Virus record (IMG/VR): IMGVR_UViG_3300035703_000435
Coordinates: 1-21,661 of that record
Strand: one strand, 5' to 3'
DNA from: a virus
Length of the DNA stretch: 21,661 bases
The notes under the pieces are model-generated. The model ran no database searches. It saw only the letters and a program-made list of their open reading frames with translations, and was not told where the DNA came from. This document shows, piece by piece, positions 14,654-21,627 of the stretch; the stretch's first letter is position 1, and each line of letters opens with the position of its first letter. The position numbers and the translations under genes were made by a program.

Positions 14654-14695
14654 ATGAAGAATAATATCAGCATTGAACTGGTGATGGCGAAATGA
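14654..14695 (+). CDS. Putative 13-residue leader peptide coupled to the replication gene
   Basis: A tiny frame beginning ATG at 14654 encodes MKNNISIELVMAK. GGAG at 14641-14644 lies nine bases upstream, a better ribosome site than that of the next gene. Its TGA overlaps the ATG of the replication gene (ATGA at 14692-14695). An in-frame ATG at 14639 would give 18 residues. The arrangement suggests that translation of this short peptide delivers ribosomes to the weak start at 14692. Because the frame is so short, coding cannot be shown by sequence alone. Confidence 0.35.
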   Translation: MKNNISIELVMAK

Positions 14696-15435
14696 TCCGC
14701 CGATCGCCAAGACCGACAAACCATTACACGGTCATCCGCAATGATGTGATCCGTGACAGCCGGTTGAGTTTCCGTGCGAGAGGTTTGCTGATCGCAATCC
14801 TGTCTCGACCAGACAACTGGACTGTCAGATCATCGCAGCTTGCAGCGGAAACCACTGAGGGTCGGGACGCAATCCGCACCGCATTGAACGAGTTGCAGAA
14901 TTGCGGTTACCTCAAAATGGAAAGGGTGCGACTGGAAAACGGACAGTTCACCACAATTCAGGTCGTATATGACGTACCTTTTGAACCGCATGAGGTACCG
15001 CAACCGGAGCCGGGAAACCAGGCTTCGGGAAACCAGGCTTCGGTTTTCCAGGCTTCTTTAGAAGTAACGAGAATAAATACTGAGAAGAAAAGAGATATAT
15101 ATTCCGCATCTGAAGATGCGTGGGAAAAGTTCTGGGCTGTCTACCCTCGCAAAAAAGATAAACAGGCTGCACTCAAAGCATGGAAGAAAGCGTTGAAAGA
15201 CGGAACAGACCCGCAACACATCATCGACGGGGCGATTCGTTACGCCGAAGAACGCTCCACCGAAGATCCGCAATACACCAAATATCCGGCCTCCTGGCTG
15301 AACGCAGGCTCATGGGAAAACCAGGCTGACCAACCGGCAGCACCGAAAGCAACCGCACGAGGCGCACAAGTGGATAGAGTCCAAACCGCACTAGAGAGAA
15401 TAGGGCGCACACAACAGAGGGAGATCACACAATGA
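14692..15435 (+). CDS. Replication initiator-like protein (winged helix, lambda-O-like layout)
   Basis: The protein has 247 residues. Residues about 8-95 resemble the winged-helix domain of phage replication initiators (HYTVIRNDVIRDSRLSFRAR, then LLIAILSRPDNWTV and RTALNELQNCGYL). A linker at 100-135 holds three tandem five-residue repeats (GNQAS, GNQAS, VFQAS; residues 108-122). The C-terminal domain, about 140-210, has WEKFWAVYPRKKDKQAALKA and TKYPASWLNAGSWEN, a module typical of phage replisome organisers that recruit the helicase or its loader. The DNA repeats in the linker may be the origin itself. The start overlaps the leader peptide stop, and the stop overlaps the next gene (ATGA), so this is the head of the early operon. 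The fold is inferred by eye. Confidence 0.7.
   Translation: MIRRSPRPTNHYTVIRNDVIRDSRLSFRARGLLIAILSRPDNWTVRSSQLAAETTEGRDAIRTALNELQNCGYLKMERVRLENGQFTTIQVVYDVPFEPHEVPQPEPGNQASGNQASVFQASLEVTRINTEKKRDIYSASEDAWEKFWAVYPRKKDKQAALKAWKKALKDGTDPQHIIDGAIRYAEERSTEDPQYTKYPASWLNAGSWENQADQPAAPKATARGAQVDRVQTALERIGRTQQREITQ
15012..15056. repeat. Three tandem 15-bp repeats inside the initiator gene (origin candidate)
   Basis: Copies at 15012-15026 and 15027-15041 are identical (GGGAAACCAGGCTTC); the third at 15042-15056 differs in its first half (GGTTTTCCAGGCTTC). Each unit has partial dyad symmetry (GAA.CC.GG.TTC). An A+T-rich, purine-rich stretch follows at about 15055-15115. Repeats plus an AT-rich element inside the initiator gene is the organisation of lambda-type origins. 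Confidence 0.5.
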
Positions 15436-15782: not shown

Positions 15783-16784
15783 ATGGAAGCAACAATTCTT
15801 GTCGGTGACGTTCTACAACGCCTATCAGATATTCCTGACGGGTCGGTTCAATGCTGTGTGACCAGTCCCCCGTATTGGGGTTTGCGTGATTACGGGCAGG
15901 ACGGGCAGTTGGGTTTGGAGTCCACACCAGAACTGTATGTGGAGAACATGGTTGCCGTGTTCCGTGAAGTGCGACGGGTGTTGGCCGATGATGGTGTGTG
16001 CTGGCTGAACCTGGGGGACTCATACAAGCCGTCAGGCAACGGTTCAACAAAAAAAGGTTTGAACGAAAGATACTTCGGTCGAGAATTCGCTAGCGACAAA
16101 CAAGGTGCGGATGAAGGACACCTTGACAGATCACAGTTCAAGGCAGAAGGTTTGAAACCGAAAGATCTTGTGGGTATCCCGTGGCGTGTCGCTTTCGCAC
16201 TTCAGGCTGACGGCTGGTGGCTTCGGCAGGACATCATCTGGCATAAACCGAACCCGATGCCCGAATCTGTCACCGACCGCTGCACCAAAGCACACGAATA
16301 TCTGTTCATGCTCACCAAATCAAGCCGCTACTACTACAACAATGACGCCATCAGAGAACCGGCTGTCGGCAAGTTCAATCCAAATTTCAAACCCAGAAAG
16401 AAAGACTGGCGGGAACGAGGATGGCCAACAGACGAAAATGGAAACGCCAGCAAAACCGGCAATCCAATACAAGCAACAAATCCGCAAGCACCCGAAGGTG
16501 GGAGAAATCGTCGGTCGGTCTGGACAATCACAACCAAGCCTTTCAAAGGCGCACATTTCGCTGTCATGCCCGAAGCACTCTGCGAACCGCCCATCCTCGC
16601 CAGCAGCCGGCCAGGAGATCTTGTCCTCGACCCATTCACAGGATCAGGGACAGTCGCAGTCGTCGCACTCCGACACAACCGCAACTTCATCGGGACAGAA
16701 CTCAACCCGGAATACGCCGAAATAGCAAAAACCAGAATCAGCAACGCCAACCCACTAATGAACGAAGTGAACATTCGGCCATGA
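15783..16784 (+). CDS. DNA methyltransferase, N6-adenine/N4-cytosine type
   Basis: A 333-residue S-adenosylmethionine-dependent DNA methyltransferase. The catalytic motif TSPPYW stands at residues 27-32 and the AdoMet-binding motif DPFTGSGT at 283-290, followed by GTELNPEYAEIA. Catalytic motif first and AdoMet motif last is the beta-class order, shared by N4-cytosine and N6-adenine enzymes. A Ser rather than Asp in the SPPY motif is more usual in N4-cytosine enzymes but does not settle it. The region between (residues 85-250) should contain target recognition. No restriction endonuclease is adjacent, so it is probably an orphan phage enzyme that protects DNA from host restriction. GAAAGAGAGAG precedes the ATG. 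Confidence 0.85.
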   Translation: MEATILVGDVLQRLSDIPDGSVQCCVTSPPYWGLRDYGQDGQLGLESTPELYVENMVAVFREVRRVLADDGVCWLNLGDSYKPSGNGSTKKGLNERYFGREFASDKQGADEGHLDRSQFKAEGLKPKDLVGIPWRVAFALQADGWWLRQDIIWHKPNPMPESVTDRCTKAHEYLFMLTKSSRYYYNNDAIREPAVGKFNPNFKPRKKDWRERGWPTDENGNASKTGNPIQATNPQAPEGGRNRRSVWTITTKPFKGAHFAVMPEALCEPPILASSRPGDLVLDPFTGSGTVAVVALRHNRNFIGTELNPEYAEIAKTRISNANPLMNEVNIRP

Positions 16785-17304: not shown

Positions 17305-17421
17305 ATGATGGGTAAGAAGAAGATGATGGGTAAGAAAATGGATGCGATGAAGAAGGGTGCAGCCCCGATGAAGAAGGCTGCTGCCAAGAAGATGGCTGCC
17401 AAAAAGAAGGGTGGTAAGTGA
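17305..17421 (+). CDS. Lys/Met-rich basic miniprotein
   Basis: A 38-residue protein made almost only of Lys, Met, Ala and Gly: 15 Lys and 8 Met, one acidic residue. It reads MMGKKKMMGKKMDAMKKG and then Ala/Lys repeats ending KKKGGK. AAAGGG lies about nine bases before the ATG, and the stop overlaps the next ATG by one base (TGATG), which supports translation. Composition suggests binding to DNA, RNA or membranes, like histone-H1-type tails; similar KKM/KKA miniproteins occur in aquatic phages as far as I recall. Two start codons stand in tandem (17305, 17308). No function can be assigned. Confidence 0.6.
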   Translation: MMGKKKMMGKKMDAMKKGAAPMKKAAAKKMAAKKKGGK

Positions 17422-17597
17422 TGCCGTACAATAAGAAAGCGAAAATGCCTGGTGATCCTGGTTGGGAGAACCCGAAGTTTGGTGGTGCCCCTGTCCGCAA
17501 CAAGCCGAAGCCTCCGAAAGGGCCGGTAACAATTCAGCCGGTCGGTAAGCCGAAGCCTGTTAAGAAGAAGTCTGCCGGTAAAAAAGGCATGAAGTAA
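17421..17597 (+). CDS. Basic Pro/Lys-rich small protein
   Basis: A 58-residue protein beginning MPYNKKAKMPGDPGWENPKF, with KPKPPKGP and GKPKPVKKKSAGKKGMK in its second half. It has no aromatic core beyond one Tyr, Trp and Phe and is probably disordered. Translation is supported by the one-base overlap with the gene before it and a two-base gap to the gene after it. With its neighbours it forms a group of three basic small proteins; nucleic-acid binding is the natural guess but there is no motif to prove it. Confidence 0.55.
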   Translation: MPYNKKAKMPGDPGWENPKFGGAPVRNKPKPPKGPVTIQPVGKPKPVKKKSAGKKGMK

Positions 17598-17599
17598 AA

Positions 17600-17875
17600 A
17601 TGACTGTGGAGCGGGCCGGGGAGAAGTTCTCGGGATACAACAAACCGAAACGAACCCCCGGCCATCCCACCAAATCTCATGCTGTCCTCGCGAAAGACGG
17701 CAGTCGAGTGAAGCTGATCCGATTCGGTCAGCAAGGAGTCACAGGCTCCCCCAAGAAAGCCGGCGAAACTGAGGCCGCTCGGAACAGGCGCGAATCGTTC
17801 AAAGCCCGCCACGCACAGAACATTCGTAAAGGAAAAATGTCTGCCGCATATTGGGCTGATAAAGCCAAATGGTGA
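17600..17875 (+). CDS. DUF5872-like basic phage protein
   Basis: A 91-residue basic protein: MTVERAGEKFSGYNKPKRTP, then HPTKSHAVLAKDGSRVKLIR, FGQQGVTGSPKKAGE, and an Arg/Lys-rich helix (RRESFKARHAQNIRKGKMS) ending AAYWADKAKW. The 'NKPKRTP.HPTKSH.V.A......K.IRFGQQGV.GSP' pattern followed by 'R..SFKARH..NI..GK.S.AYWA...KW' is one I know from many aquatic and actinobacterial phages, labelled DUF5872. The conserved His, Lys and Arg positions suggest nucleic-acid binding, but the function is not established. It is the last gene of the early operon before a 785-bp non-coding stretch. Confidence 0.75.
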   Translation: MTVERAGEKFSGYNKPKRTPGHPTKSHAVLAKDGSRVKLIRFGQQGVTGSPKKAGETEAARNRRESFKARHAQNIRKGKMSAAYWADKAKW

Positions 17876-17883
17876 CCCGCCAA

Positions 17884-17892
17884 TGATATAAT
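17884..17892 (+). promoter_or_regulatory. Extended -10 promoter at the head of the non-coding region
   Basis: TGA-TATAAT (17884-17892) is a perfect extended -10 and needs no strong -35. It lies 8 bases past the last stop codon. Transcription would begin near 17899, exactly where the first hairpin of the candidate RNA starts. Confidence 0.45.
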
Positions 17893-17896
17893 CATT

Positions 17897-18145
17897 CTGC
17901 TTCTGTCGAGACGACACAGCAGGCAAGCAGTAAGCGTTCATCGGTTGCACGATGCGGGCTGACACACGGAAACGTGGGTAGATCTCTCATGCCCAGACAC
18001 GTAGAACCACCGAATGGTTGGGCAGGAAGACGAGAGAGGCACGAACCCGCGAGGGCGACAACAAACATTAAGAGCCGAACCAGCTCCATAAACAACGGTC
18101 GGGAATCCAAGTGTGGCAACTGGATGGGGGGTTAAGCCAACCCTG
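17897..18145 (+). ncRNA. Candidate structured non-coding RNA (boundaries approximate)
   Basis: A dense series of stems follows the extended -10 promoter. CTGCTT (17897-17902) pairs with AAGCAG (17925-17930) around an inner TGTCG-AGA-CGACA hairpin (17904-17916). CACG (about 17966-17969) and CGTG form a GAAA-tetraloop hairpin; the stem can be extended across one mismatch. AACCA (18005-18009) pairs with TGGTT (18015-18019) around CCGAA. CTCTC near 17984-17988 can pair with GAGAG near 18032-18036. GGGTT (18129-18133) pairs with AACCC (18139-18143). I cannot match this to a known RNA class from memory; no tRNA T-loop or tmRNA ends are seen. The 3' end is a guess, set where the unstructured C/A-rich stretch starts. 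Confidence 0.4.
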
Positions 18146-18229
18146 TCGAAACATTCACCCAAACACACACCCCCACCACACGACACGCAGCTCCAACAGC
18201 AACAAAACCACACAGCGCAACAACAACTA

Positions 18230-18239
18230 ATATCGATAT
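18230..18239. repeat. ATATCGATAT palindrome at the strand-composition switch
   Basis: A perfect 10-bp palindrome in a short AT-rich patch. To its left the plus strand is C/A-rich, to its right G/T-rich. This abrupt switch together with an AT-rich palindrome is a feature of some replication origins. Confidence 0.45.
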
Positions 18240-18306
18240 ATGCTTGCGGGTGTGTCGGCAGACCCCGGGTTGGTGGATGCGGATACGGGTAGGGGTATGG
18301 TCGATG

Positions 18307-18342: not shown

Positions 18343-18416
18343 ACTGAACTGGCTACCAGTGTAGAGGATATGCACCGTTCGACAAGACGAGGTGTGGATA
18401 GGGCAGAGACGTCGCC

Positions 18417-18488
18417 TAGTCAGTCAGCTAGCCAGTCAGTCTGTCGGTTGGTCTGTCGGTCTGTCGGTTGGTCAGTTGGTCTGTCTGG
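18417..18488. repeat. Degenerate tetranucleotide tandem repeat (about 72 bp)
   Basis: Mainly GT-ending four-base units (CAGT, CTGT, CGGT, TGGT) in tandem. The 12-mer CTGTCGGTTGGT occurs at 18441-18452 and 18461-18472, with CTGTCGGT between them. The repeat lies in the G/T-rich half of the non-coding region. Confidence 0.6.
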
Positions 18489-18545
18489 CGGGGGGTTGGC
18501 CGGGGGTGATCTTTGGGGGCGGGAGCTTGACCGTGGGGGTGATCT
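18489..18545 (+). other. G-run cluster with G-quadruplex potential
   Basis: Runs of three to six G recur in close succession: about 18489-18495, 18502-18506, 18515-18519, 18521-18523 and 18535-18539. Loops are mostly between 1 and 11 bases. The plus strand could fold into a G-quadruplex. Confidence 0.4.
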
Positions 18546-18595
18546 TCTTCGACGGTGATCTTCGGGTGATCTTCTTCTTCGGTTGGGTTGATCTT
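18505..18595. repeat. Five GGTGATCTT repeats upstream of the gene at 18662
   Basis: Exact copies of GGTGATCTT begin at 18505, 18538, 18554 and 18565, and a variant GGTTGATCTT at 18586. They are direct repeats on one strand with 11 to 33 bp spacing, like iterons or a cooperative regulator site array, and end about 70 bp before the next gene. Confidence 0.55.
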
Positions 18596-18661
18596 TGGCG
18601 GCGGTGGCCGTACACTTGCGGCTAGTAGTCGTAGGGGCTACGTGAGAGATAAGGAGAGATT

Positions 18662-19156
18662 GTGACTACATGCGCTAAGTGTGACCGGCCTACGGCCGGG
18701 AAATCTAAATATTGTAGGGATCACCGGGAGATTGCCCGGGAAGAATGGAAGAAGAAGATCGCCGAAAGTGAATCGGCCCGGGGCGACCGGGAGCTACGGC
18801 ACCGGGAGCTATTCGACGCTATGCGGGCGGCGGCGCAAGACGCGTGGGATCAAGCTACGCCGGCCCCTATGGTTGTAACGGATGACATGCGGGGCGTGTC
18901 GTATTTCGTTTCGGATGGCGTGTGCGGGTTTTCTAATGTCGTGATCCGGCCCGCTAATTCTTCTTTTGCCCTATGGGTCAAGAAGAATATTAGAACGTAC
19001 CCGAACTATTACGGGGGCCTGTCGATCCCCTCGCATAGTTTGGTCACTGAGAATGGGTCACAATCCTACGATCGTAAGGTAGCGGCGACCCGGGCGGCGG
19101 TGCAAGTGTTAGTAGCGGCGGGTGTCAAGGCCCGCACGGATAGCCGGCTAGATTGA
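18662..19156 (+). CDS. Zinc-knuckle protein of unknown function
   Basis: A 164-residue protein starting with GTG, supported by AAGGAG five bases upstream (18651-18656). The N-terminus has a likely zinc site: Cys4, Cys7, Cys18, His21 in TTCAKCDRP...YCRDH. A charged helix follows (REIAREEWKKKIAESESARG to about residue 62). A C-terminal globular domain contains GVCGFSNVVIRPANSS and VTENGSQSYDRKVAATRAAV. I do not recognise the family. Codon use is unlike that of the structural genes (many CGG, GGG, CCC and CTA codons; Gln mostly CAA), which it shares with the next two genes, suggesting a different history. It may be controlled by the GGTGATCTT repeats just upstream. Confidence 0.7.
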   Translation: MTTCAKCDRPTAGKSKYCRDHREIAREEWKKKIAESESARGDRELRHRELFDAMRAAAQDAWDQATPAPMVVTDDMRGVSYFVSDGVCGFSNVVIRPANSSFALWVKKNIRTYPNYYGGLSIPSHSLVTENGSQSYDRKVAATRAAVQVLVAAGVKARTDSRLD

Positions 19157-21118: not shown

Positions 21119-21291
21119 CCGAGGATCGTGTAGAAGAAATCCTGTCGGTACTCGATGACCGTAACCTGCTCGCCGCTATCAGGCGGGGAGACGTTACCTA
21201 TCTGACTGACGGCGATCCGGTGTCGTCATACGGGTATTGGCAGCGTGCCAATCTCATGCGTGCCGAGGCACGGCGGCGAGGGATACTTTGA
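21115..21291 (+). CDS. Small helical protein of unknown function
   Basis: A 58-residue protein (MTEDRVEEILSVLDDRNLLA, ending RAEARRRGIL) with likely helices at both ends and a central YLTDGDPVSSYGYW. The start at 21115 overlaps the previous stop (ATGA); an ATG two codons earlier (21109) is an alternative. The TGA stop is the first codon of the 97-bp repeated leader. I do not recognise the family. Confidence 0.55.
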   Translation: MTEDRVEEILSVLDDRNLLAAIRRGDVTYLTDGDPVSSYGYWQRANLMRAEARRRGIL

Positions 21292-21385
21292 CCGAGGCCG
21301 AAACAGGGGATCTCTCCCCTGTCGTCCGGTAAGGCCGGGCCTGACGATGGCCGTCAGACTAACGAAAGAGAGACACAATGAAAGT
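21289..21385 (+). repeat. Three-hairpin leader repeat, copy 1 (97 bp)
   Basis: It starts with the stop codon of the previous gene and ends five bases into the next gene. It has three consecutive stems: ACAGGGGA/TCCCCTGT with loop TCTC (21303-21322), GTCCGG/CCGGGC with loop TAAGG (21324-21340), and CTGACG/CGTCAG with loop ATGGC (21341-21357). Then comes the purine-rich ribosome site GAAAGAGAG and the ATG at 21378. It differs from copy 2 at two positions only. Confidence 0.8.
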
Positions 21386-21533
21386 GCGACAACTGTTTGC
21401 TGTTCTTCTTCATCCGAAAACCTATCGGATGGGCAAGGCTGAGGCGTTCATGTCAACTGGTATGACATGGGGTGATCCTGACAGTTTTCGATCTGTGGCG
21501 TATGACGTTGGGCGTGACAGAGTTGAACGCTGA
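21378..21533 (+). CDS. Small protein of unknown function after leader copy 1
   Basis: A 51-residue protein starting MKVRQLFAVLLHPKTYRMGK, with TGMTWGDPDSFRSVAYDVGR near its end. It is slightly basic and probably one compact unit with a helical start. The ribosome site GAAAGAGAG is inside the repeated leader. Its stop codon is the first codon of leader copy 2. The shared MKV start with the following gene comes from the repeat and does not show homology. Confidence 0.55.
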   Translation: MKVRQLFAVLLHPKTYRMGKAEAFMSTGMTWGDPDSFRSVAYDVGRDRVER

Positions 21534-21627
21534 TCGAGGCCGAAACAGGGGATCTCTCCCCTGTCGTCCGGTAAGGCCGGGCCTGACGATGGCCGTCAGA
21601 CAAACGAAAGAGAGACACAATGAAAGT
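21531..21627 (+). repeat. Three-hairpin leader repeat, copy 2 (97 bp)
   Basis: Same sequence as copy 1, 242 bases downstream, with differences only at 21534 and 21602, both outside the three stems. It too begins with a TGA stop and ends with the ATGAAAGT start of the next gene, so the unit is exactly the interval between two coding bodies. Confidence 0.8.

Follow-up and report, generated by a model that had tools for sequence, protein, structure and literature searches.

The window, i.e., the complete virus record of 21,661 bases that was analyzed here, carries ordinary genes on the + strand near the locus of interest. These include a replication initiator gene (14692-15435), a DNA methyltransferase gene (15783-16784), and small genes that reach to position 17875. 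Behind 17875 there is a gene-free gap of 786 bases, which is followed by a gene at 18662-19156 and more genes beyond. The terminase of the window matches phrog_38, and in this phage type it is encoded on the strand opposite to that of the RNA described below. ARAGORN and Rfam detected neither a tRNA nor a tmRNA in the window, no tRNA gene adjoins the RNA, and the window contains no WhiB gene. At 17306-17597, 5′ of the RNA, two tiny proteins are encoded that are very rich in lysine and methionine (MMGKKKMMGKKMDAMKKG... and MMPYNKKAKMPGDPGW...). Ahead of the next gene, 3′ of the RNA, there are tandem repeats at 18416-18485 and 18537-18605 (GTCTGTCGGTTGGT-like with a period of 20, and GGTGATCTTC-like), which might be origin repeats or binding sites. 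A 97-base direct repeat with 98% identity is located at 21289-21385 and 21531-21627, each copy ending in AGAGACACAATGAAAGT; one and the same leader, containing a GGGGATCTCTCCCC hairpin, hence precedes two start codons.

Architecture of the Structured RNA Locus

A preliminary description of the gap had proposed a gene-free, structured phage RNA at 17884-18145. The features that were identified in this region and directly behind it are as follows:

17884..17892, + strand: extended -10 promoter element TGATATAAT, a perfect match read in the sequence and conserved in homologs
17897..17930, + strand: 5′ hairpin domain CTGCTT/AAGCAG (17897-17902/17925-17930) with an inner hairpin, read in the sequence
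17932..18131, + strand: conserved RNA core, matching covariance model R1 with 177.7 bits, the window being one of the 18 seed sequences
17933..17960, + strand: P1 hairpin, supported by pairing and double changes in 30 distinct sequences
17965..17976, + strand: P2 hairpin CACG-GAAA-CGTG with a GNRA tetraloop, predicted and recovered in contigs found by P1 alone
17983..18037, + strand: P3 long hairpin with outer stem TCTCTC (17983-17988)/GAGAGA (18032-18037), 4/6 outer pairs compensatory in the plain alignment and 6/6 in the model-fitted one
18046..18055, + strand: P4 hairpin CCC-GCGA-GGG with a GNRA loop, from comparative alignments
18072..18099, + strand: P5 hairpin GAGC/GCTC (18072-18075/18083-18086), which covaries, with a proposed pseudoknot of ACC (18079-18081) with GGT (18097-18099)
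18105..18131, + strand: P6 hairpin ATCCA/TGGAT (18105-18109/18121-18125) with 5/5 pairs compensatory in the model-fitted alignment, and terminal G run GGGGGG (18126-18131)
18137..18236, + strand: C-rich, G-poor unstructured stretch (42 C, 9 G), by composition a possible rut-like terminator region

The extended -10 element lies right before the hairpins, as had been described. Of 44 window-type homologs, 36 have the sequence TGNTANNNT no more than ~85 nt 5′ of the RNA core, compared to 2.4% of 849 control stretches, and the -10 element is further away from P1 where the 5′ hairpin domain is longer. This comparison indicates that in phages of the window's type the RNA has a promoter of its own, which is conserved. 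In a second, ~14-kb type of carrier phage (see below) no -10 element is evident at the RNA and same-strand genes are present on both sides; there, the RNA may thus be processed out of a longer transcript or function in cis.

The structured RNA extends from ~17897 to 18131 and comprises ~235 nt with the 5′ hairpin, of which 200 nt form the conserved core. Compared to the originally suggested extent, the conserved RNA stops at ~18131, slightly short of 18145. Both stems that had been singled out before, CTGCTT/AAGCAG with its inner hairpin and the GAAA-tetraloop stem (P2), are present. The 5′ domain is variable, and relatives have another hairpin in the same place, e.g., GGCC-CACGCA-GGCC; stems read at this place in homologs, taken without pair statistics, are GGCC/GGCC, GAGC/GCTC, GGGC/GCCC, and GGAC/GTCC. 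In five contigs (L172, L252, L265, L222, and L223) the 5′ hairpin is interrupted by an extra whole domain, which consists of a closing helix GCTGG...CCAGC and inner hairpins and in L172 lies ~60-180 bases upstream of P2. In L182, L197, and L216 a long hairpin (e.g., GAAGGCCGCCCC...ACGGCCTTC) is added ahead of the 5′ domain, yielding an RNA of ~330 nt. P1 is built from a base AGC/GCT (17933-17935/17958-17960), an internal loop GTT/CGG, and a stem CATC/GATG (17939-17942/17951-17954), and its loop carries a conserved TNGCA. Directly 3′ of P2 follows a conserved GGTAGA (17977-17982). Within P3 an inner stem TGCCC/GGGCA (17990-17994/18020-18024) was read by eye. The loop of P4 is GCAA or GTGA in relatives, and in three contigs of the window's type (L101, L129, and L136) the P4 hairpin is lost while P1, P2, P5, and P6 are kept, so that P4 is dispensable.

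Short ORFs overlap the RNA region. However, each reading frame is interrupted in at least one of 20 homologs, and 104 of 114 indels have lengths that are not divisible by three, so that coding on either strand was ruled out, in agreement with the reported absence of a gene. The stretch at 18137-18236 is the most C-over-G rich 100-nt window of the + strand (0 of 2157 sampled windows equal it), and the 100 bases 3′ of the RNA contain on average 38% C and 15% G in 42 homologs. Because of this composition we propose a Rho entry site behind the RNA, at which transcription is probably terminated. Behind the RNA, phages of the window's type have 0.7-1.5 kb of DNA that is apparently non-coding, and small genes that are not conserved between relatives. 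The window-type relatives share a second conserved block (18199-18275 in the window), which consists of AACAAAACCACACA, ~14 bases further on TAATAT-N4-TATAT, and then a hairpin GGGT...ACCC with CTCGGC, with apparent covariation of its pairs (L137, e.g., has CTATACC..GGCATAG). This block is possibly the next promoter together with a second small structure.

Comparative Evidence for the Fold

Folding of the window sequence yielded a minimum free energy of -75.7 kcal/mol compared to a shuffled mean of -73.7 kcal/mol (z = -0.47), and the resulting structure misses some of the conserved helices. Since the folding energy is no better than that of the shuffles, the hairpins cannot be judged from the window sequence alone, and it is the comparison with homologs alone that shows them to be real. 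For this comparison, terminase relatives of the window were drawn from IMG/VR. BLAST revealed that the gap itself is conserved in about 35 of them, with 60-70% identity from ~17897 to ~18300. RNAalifold, applied to the whole set of early homologs, gave no fold because these vary in length at P3 to P5. In a plain MAFFT alignment of 18 window-type homologs, 17 of the 29 P1-P6 pairs are compensatory, with a covariation score of 0.439 compared to 0.155 after shuffling and at most 0.10 after sliding. The covariance model R1 was built from this alignment, its E-values being rough owing to a short calibration. R1 matched 44 times among 80 terminase loci and the window. In the alignment of these 44 sequences, which is fitted to the model, 27 of the 29 pairs show a compensatory change (0 of 500 shuffles reached this) and 95% are paired compared to 32-44% after sliding; many of the homologs in these comparisons are related to one another. 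Thus, pairing is conserved in the homologous regions, the lack of which had been named beforehand as the observation that should dismiss the RNA.

Further homologs were collected with the P2 hairpin pattern CACGGRAACGTGGN{0,1}TMGAY, which detected at least 120 more contig stretches. R1 matches were obtained 91 times in 94 of the P2-pattern loci, and the matches represent one RNA, whose core is conserved and whose outer parts vary. For P1, 28-mers were selected solely by the letters of loop and flanks, with no requirement for pairing. Over the 30 distinct 28-mers among the matches listed, 98.6% of the cells are paired, 6 of 7 pairs have double changes, and 46 cells are double-changed compared to 10.6 expected, a value that 0 of 500 shuffles reach.

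As a prediction test, a second scan was carried out with the P1 pattern alone, GTACACCNNTNGCANGGTGCGGG. It led to the identification of at least 56 further contigs, and all 56 that were listed match R1. A P2 hairpin with at least four pairs and a GNRA loop is present in the right place in 55 of these 56, whereas the last one is cut off 13 bases 3′ of P1. Most of them have a P2 stem unlike that of the window, and at least eight different stems occur (CAGG/CCTG, CCAG/CTGG, CTAG/CTAG, CGCG/CGCG, CTCG/CGAG, CCTG/CAGG, GCAG/CTGC, and CACG/CGTG). Loops that vary within the GNRA rule and the occurrence of G-U pairs argue for an element that acts as RNA rather than as DNA. In changing forms (ACC/GGU, GCC/GGC, GCUC/GAGC, and UCC/GGA), the loop of P5 is complementary to the segment that precedes P6. 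Over 17 sequences, this complementarity exceeded that of all 2000 re-pairings, with the relatedness of these sequences uncontrolled. For the latter reason, the pseudoknot between the P5 loop and this segment is regarded as tentative. Taken as a family, the sequences share P1 with a UNGCA loop and a GUA/CGG internal loop, P2 with its GNRA loop, GGGUAGAY or the like, a 3′ hairpin, a G run, and covariation.

Carrier Phages and Their Hosts

The RNA is present in well over a hundred uncultured viruses, which apparently infect Actinobacteria. Two unrelated phage types carry it, namely ~40-kb phages with the terminase type of the window and phages of ~14 kb. The large phage contigs have one copy of the RNA each. 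In the ~14-kb type, VRR-NUC, the RNA, and HNH-TerL follow each other on one strand near the genome end, and the terminase is an HNH domain fused to a terminase-like ATPase, which is unlike the terminase of the window. No protein family common to all carriers was seen. The 14-kb contigs end at one fixed point, ~560 bases after P2 and inside the HNH-TerL frame, which reads continuously in L227-L229. Because these contigs stop at one sequence point, it is taken as the cos site, which would probably lie within the HNH-TerL gene. The fixed end (TTTTTT, then ~20 bases to GCC) was read in L194, L210, L267, L181, L198, L231, L260, and L262. A fixed genome end beside the RNA in the window's type was considered and is not supported by the ~40-kb contigs, which show scattered distances.

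When only terminase loci with at least 4 kb of upstream sequence are counted, R1 detects the RNA in 18 of 24, and two more (L085 and L087) were recognized by eye. Relatives retrieved by means of the upstream gene (17600-17875) are mostly phages in which BLAST finds no RNA. A BLAST search for the RNA in isolated phages gave no homolog and one chance match of 28 bases. The core pattern ACACGGRAACGTGGGTMGAY, which comprises 20 bases and one exact form of the core, is absent from 257 Gb of bacterial and archaeal genomes, and no terminase relatives were found in bacterial genomes. The best match of the terminase among isolated phages has 25% identity and comes from two Ca. Planktophila phages (E7 and F5). 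R1 finds no match in these nearest isolates by terminase among those searched, even with filters off, and the RNA is thus not needed by all such phages. WhiB genes (PF02467), which are held to indicate actinophages (PMC10202952), are present in relatives of the window, and this points to actinobacterial hosts of the carriers. The actinobacterial-phage setting that had been assumed is thereby supported through the relatives, the window itself being without WhiB.

Relation to Known RNAs and Possible Function

In order to classify the RNA, Rfam 15 (4227 models) was searched. No credible match was obtained in the window, in the region itself (E up to 5), or in 20 relatives (135,709 bases), and a text search of the open literature for the core motif letters found nothing beyond an unrelated plant paper. 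Judged by these comparisons, the RNA is new as a family, whereas as a kind, the stand-alone structured phage RNA, it is known from GOLLD and ROOL. It had indeed been said to fit no RNA class. The parallel to GOLLD that was drawn at the same time holds in kind: GOLLD and ROOL are structured RNAs of phages or prophages with unknown function that were found comparatively, and GOLLD has a conserved part and variable outer domains like the RNA described here. However, the RNA is not GOLLD. The GOLLD model has no match in the Rfam scan of the window and 20 relatives, and GOLLD has a universal 3′ region and often exceeds 800 nt, whereas our RNA has ~235 nt in a gap of 786 nt as a whole. A ROOL RNA that has been studied comprises 659 nt, and the GOLLD profile used in that work was taken from Rfam (PMC12286853). 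The mycobacteriophages L5, D29, and StarStuff express a non-coding RNA of unknown function at the right end from an early promoter (Pleft) (PMC5712189), which is similar in being a non-coding actinophage RNA close to the right end of the genome. That RNA belongs to other phages, its transcribed region has ~500 bp, and its expression is shown, whereas the RNA described here is known from sequence comparison. R1 has no match in the right end of D29 (45000-49127), with filters off. The 6S and Ms1 RNAs, compact and abundant RNAs that occupy RNA polymerase, resemble our RNA only in a possible way of working, for they form one long bulged helix and not several hairpins, and no Rfam match was obtained.

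The first downstream genes in the window's type lie 0.7-1.5 kb off and differ between relatives, and the stretch that follows the RNA is C-rich and G-poor, which argues for a stand-alone RNA. Furthermore, the same RNA occurs beside unrelated genes in two phage types that share no evident feature other than the host group, no protein is common to all carriers, and the genes behind the RNA are not conserved, which argues for an action in trans. We therefore regard it as reasonably probable that 17897 to ~18131 is the gene for a stand-alone, non-coding RNA of ~235 nt that belongs to a previously undescribed family, has its own promoter, and acts in trans. In the window's phage type, host RNA polymerase is predicted to transcribe the RNA from its extended -10 promoter, and the transcript would stop before the next genes, probably via Rho in the C-rich, G-poor stretch. 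The RNA would fold into P1 to P6 and present its invariant unpaired residues (the UNGCA of the P1 loop, the GUA/CGG internal loop of P1, the GNRA loop of P2, the joining GGGUAGAY, and the 3′ G run) as one putative binding surface. As part of a ribonucleoprotein it may then act in trans on a component of the actinobacterial host, the most plausible target being the host transcription or translation machinery. The RNA is kept in 14-kb genomes and is therefore presumably worth its cost, and its presence in two unrelated phage types, one of only ~14 kb, points to a shared infection step. It is conceivable, and we suggest it with some reserve, that the RNA stands for a large new class of phage RNAs that in trans seize RNA polymerase, the ribosome, or an RNase as a conserved machine of the actinobacterial host, common to unrelated phages of abundant aquatic Actinobacteria and kept even in genomes of 14 kb. 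The phages of uncultured aquatic Actinobacteria, whose genes are mostly unexplained, thereby gain a widespread RNA family that covaries very strongly, and the alignment, the covariance model, and the fixed unpaired positions are a basis for designing mutation and pull-down tests.

The main rival to a trans-acting RNA is a cis-acting leader that alters the polymerase by which it is made, e.g., by processive antitermination, so that host RNA polymerase would pass terminators and enter the downstream same-strand genes. A precedent is put of phage HK022, a folded RNA element at the start of early transcripts, which is reported to suppress pausing and termination by itself (PMC9378689). Compared by description, put and, in the window's phage type, our RNA both lie right behind a promoter and share the strand of the genes that follow, and in the 14-kb phages, too, genes on the same strand lie 3′ of our RNA. 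However, put acts in cis, whereas the RNA described here precedes long, apparently non-coding DNA that includes the promoter-like block (18201-18241) and the rut-like stretch, and the first genes behind it are not conserved. The element put is also several times smaller. Such a leader is thus considered unlikely.

It could also be that the RNA is linked to replication, as a primer or a regulator at the replication origin. Its position 3′ of the replication initiator and methyltransferase genes, and 5′ of an AT-rich block and the tandem repeats, which could be parts of an origin, is in line with this. However, the 14-kb phages place the RNA elsewhere, before HNH-TerL, and the RNA was found to contain no initiator-binding repeats, so that we hold this role to be rather improbable.

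A DNA packaging RNA at the portal/terminase motor, similar to the phi29 pRNA, would likewise be a small structured phage RNA, and the 14-kb relatives carry our RNA near the genome end beside packaging genes, ~0.5 kb from the fixed contig end and just before HNH-TerL. For 37 of the 65 whole contigs among the matches listed, the end downstream of the RNA is at most 1 kb away, and in no contig is the upstream end this close. However, the terminases of the two carrier types are unlike each other, and a packaging ATPase of the phi29 gp16 type is not found in the carriers, which have phrog_38 (window) or the HNH-fused terminase-like ATPase (14-kb phages). The 40-kb contigs show scattered distances between the RNA and their ends, the downstream ends lie at no fixed point, and the Rfam phage pRNA model has no match in the window or 20 relatives. 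A packaging function is therefore regarded as very improbable.

That the hairpins arose by chance, or that the region is a DNA-level element or codes for a protein, could be argued from a folding energy not below that of shuffles and from the overlapping short ORFs. These readings are practically refuted by covariation far above all shuffles and slides, the 55 of 56 outcome of the prediction test among the matches listed, frames that are not kept, and the presence of G-U pairs and GNRA loops.
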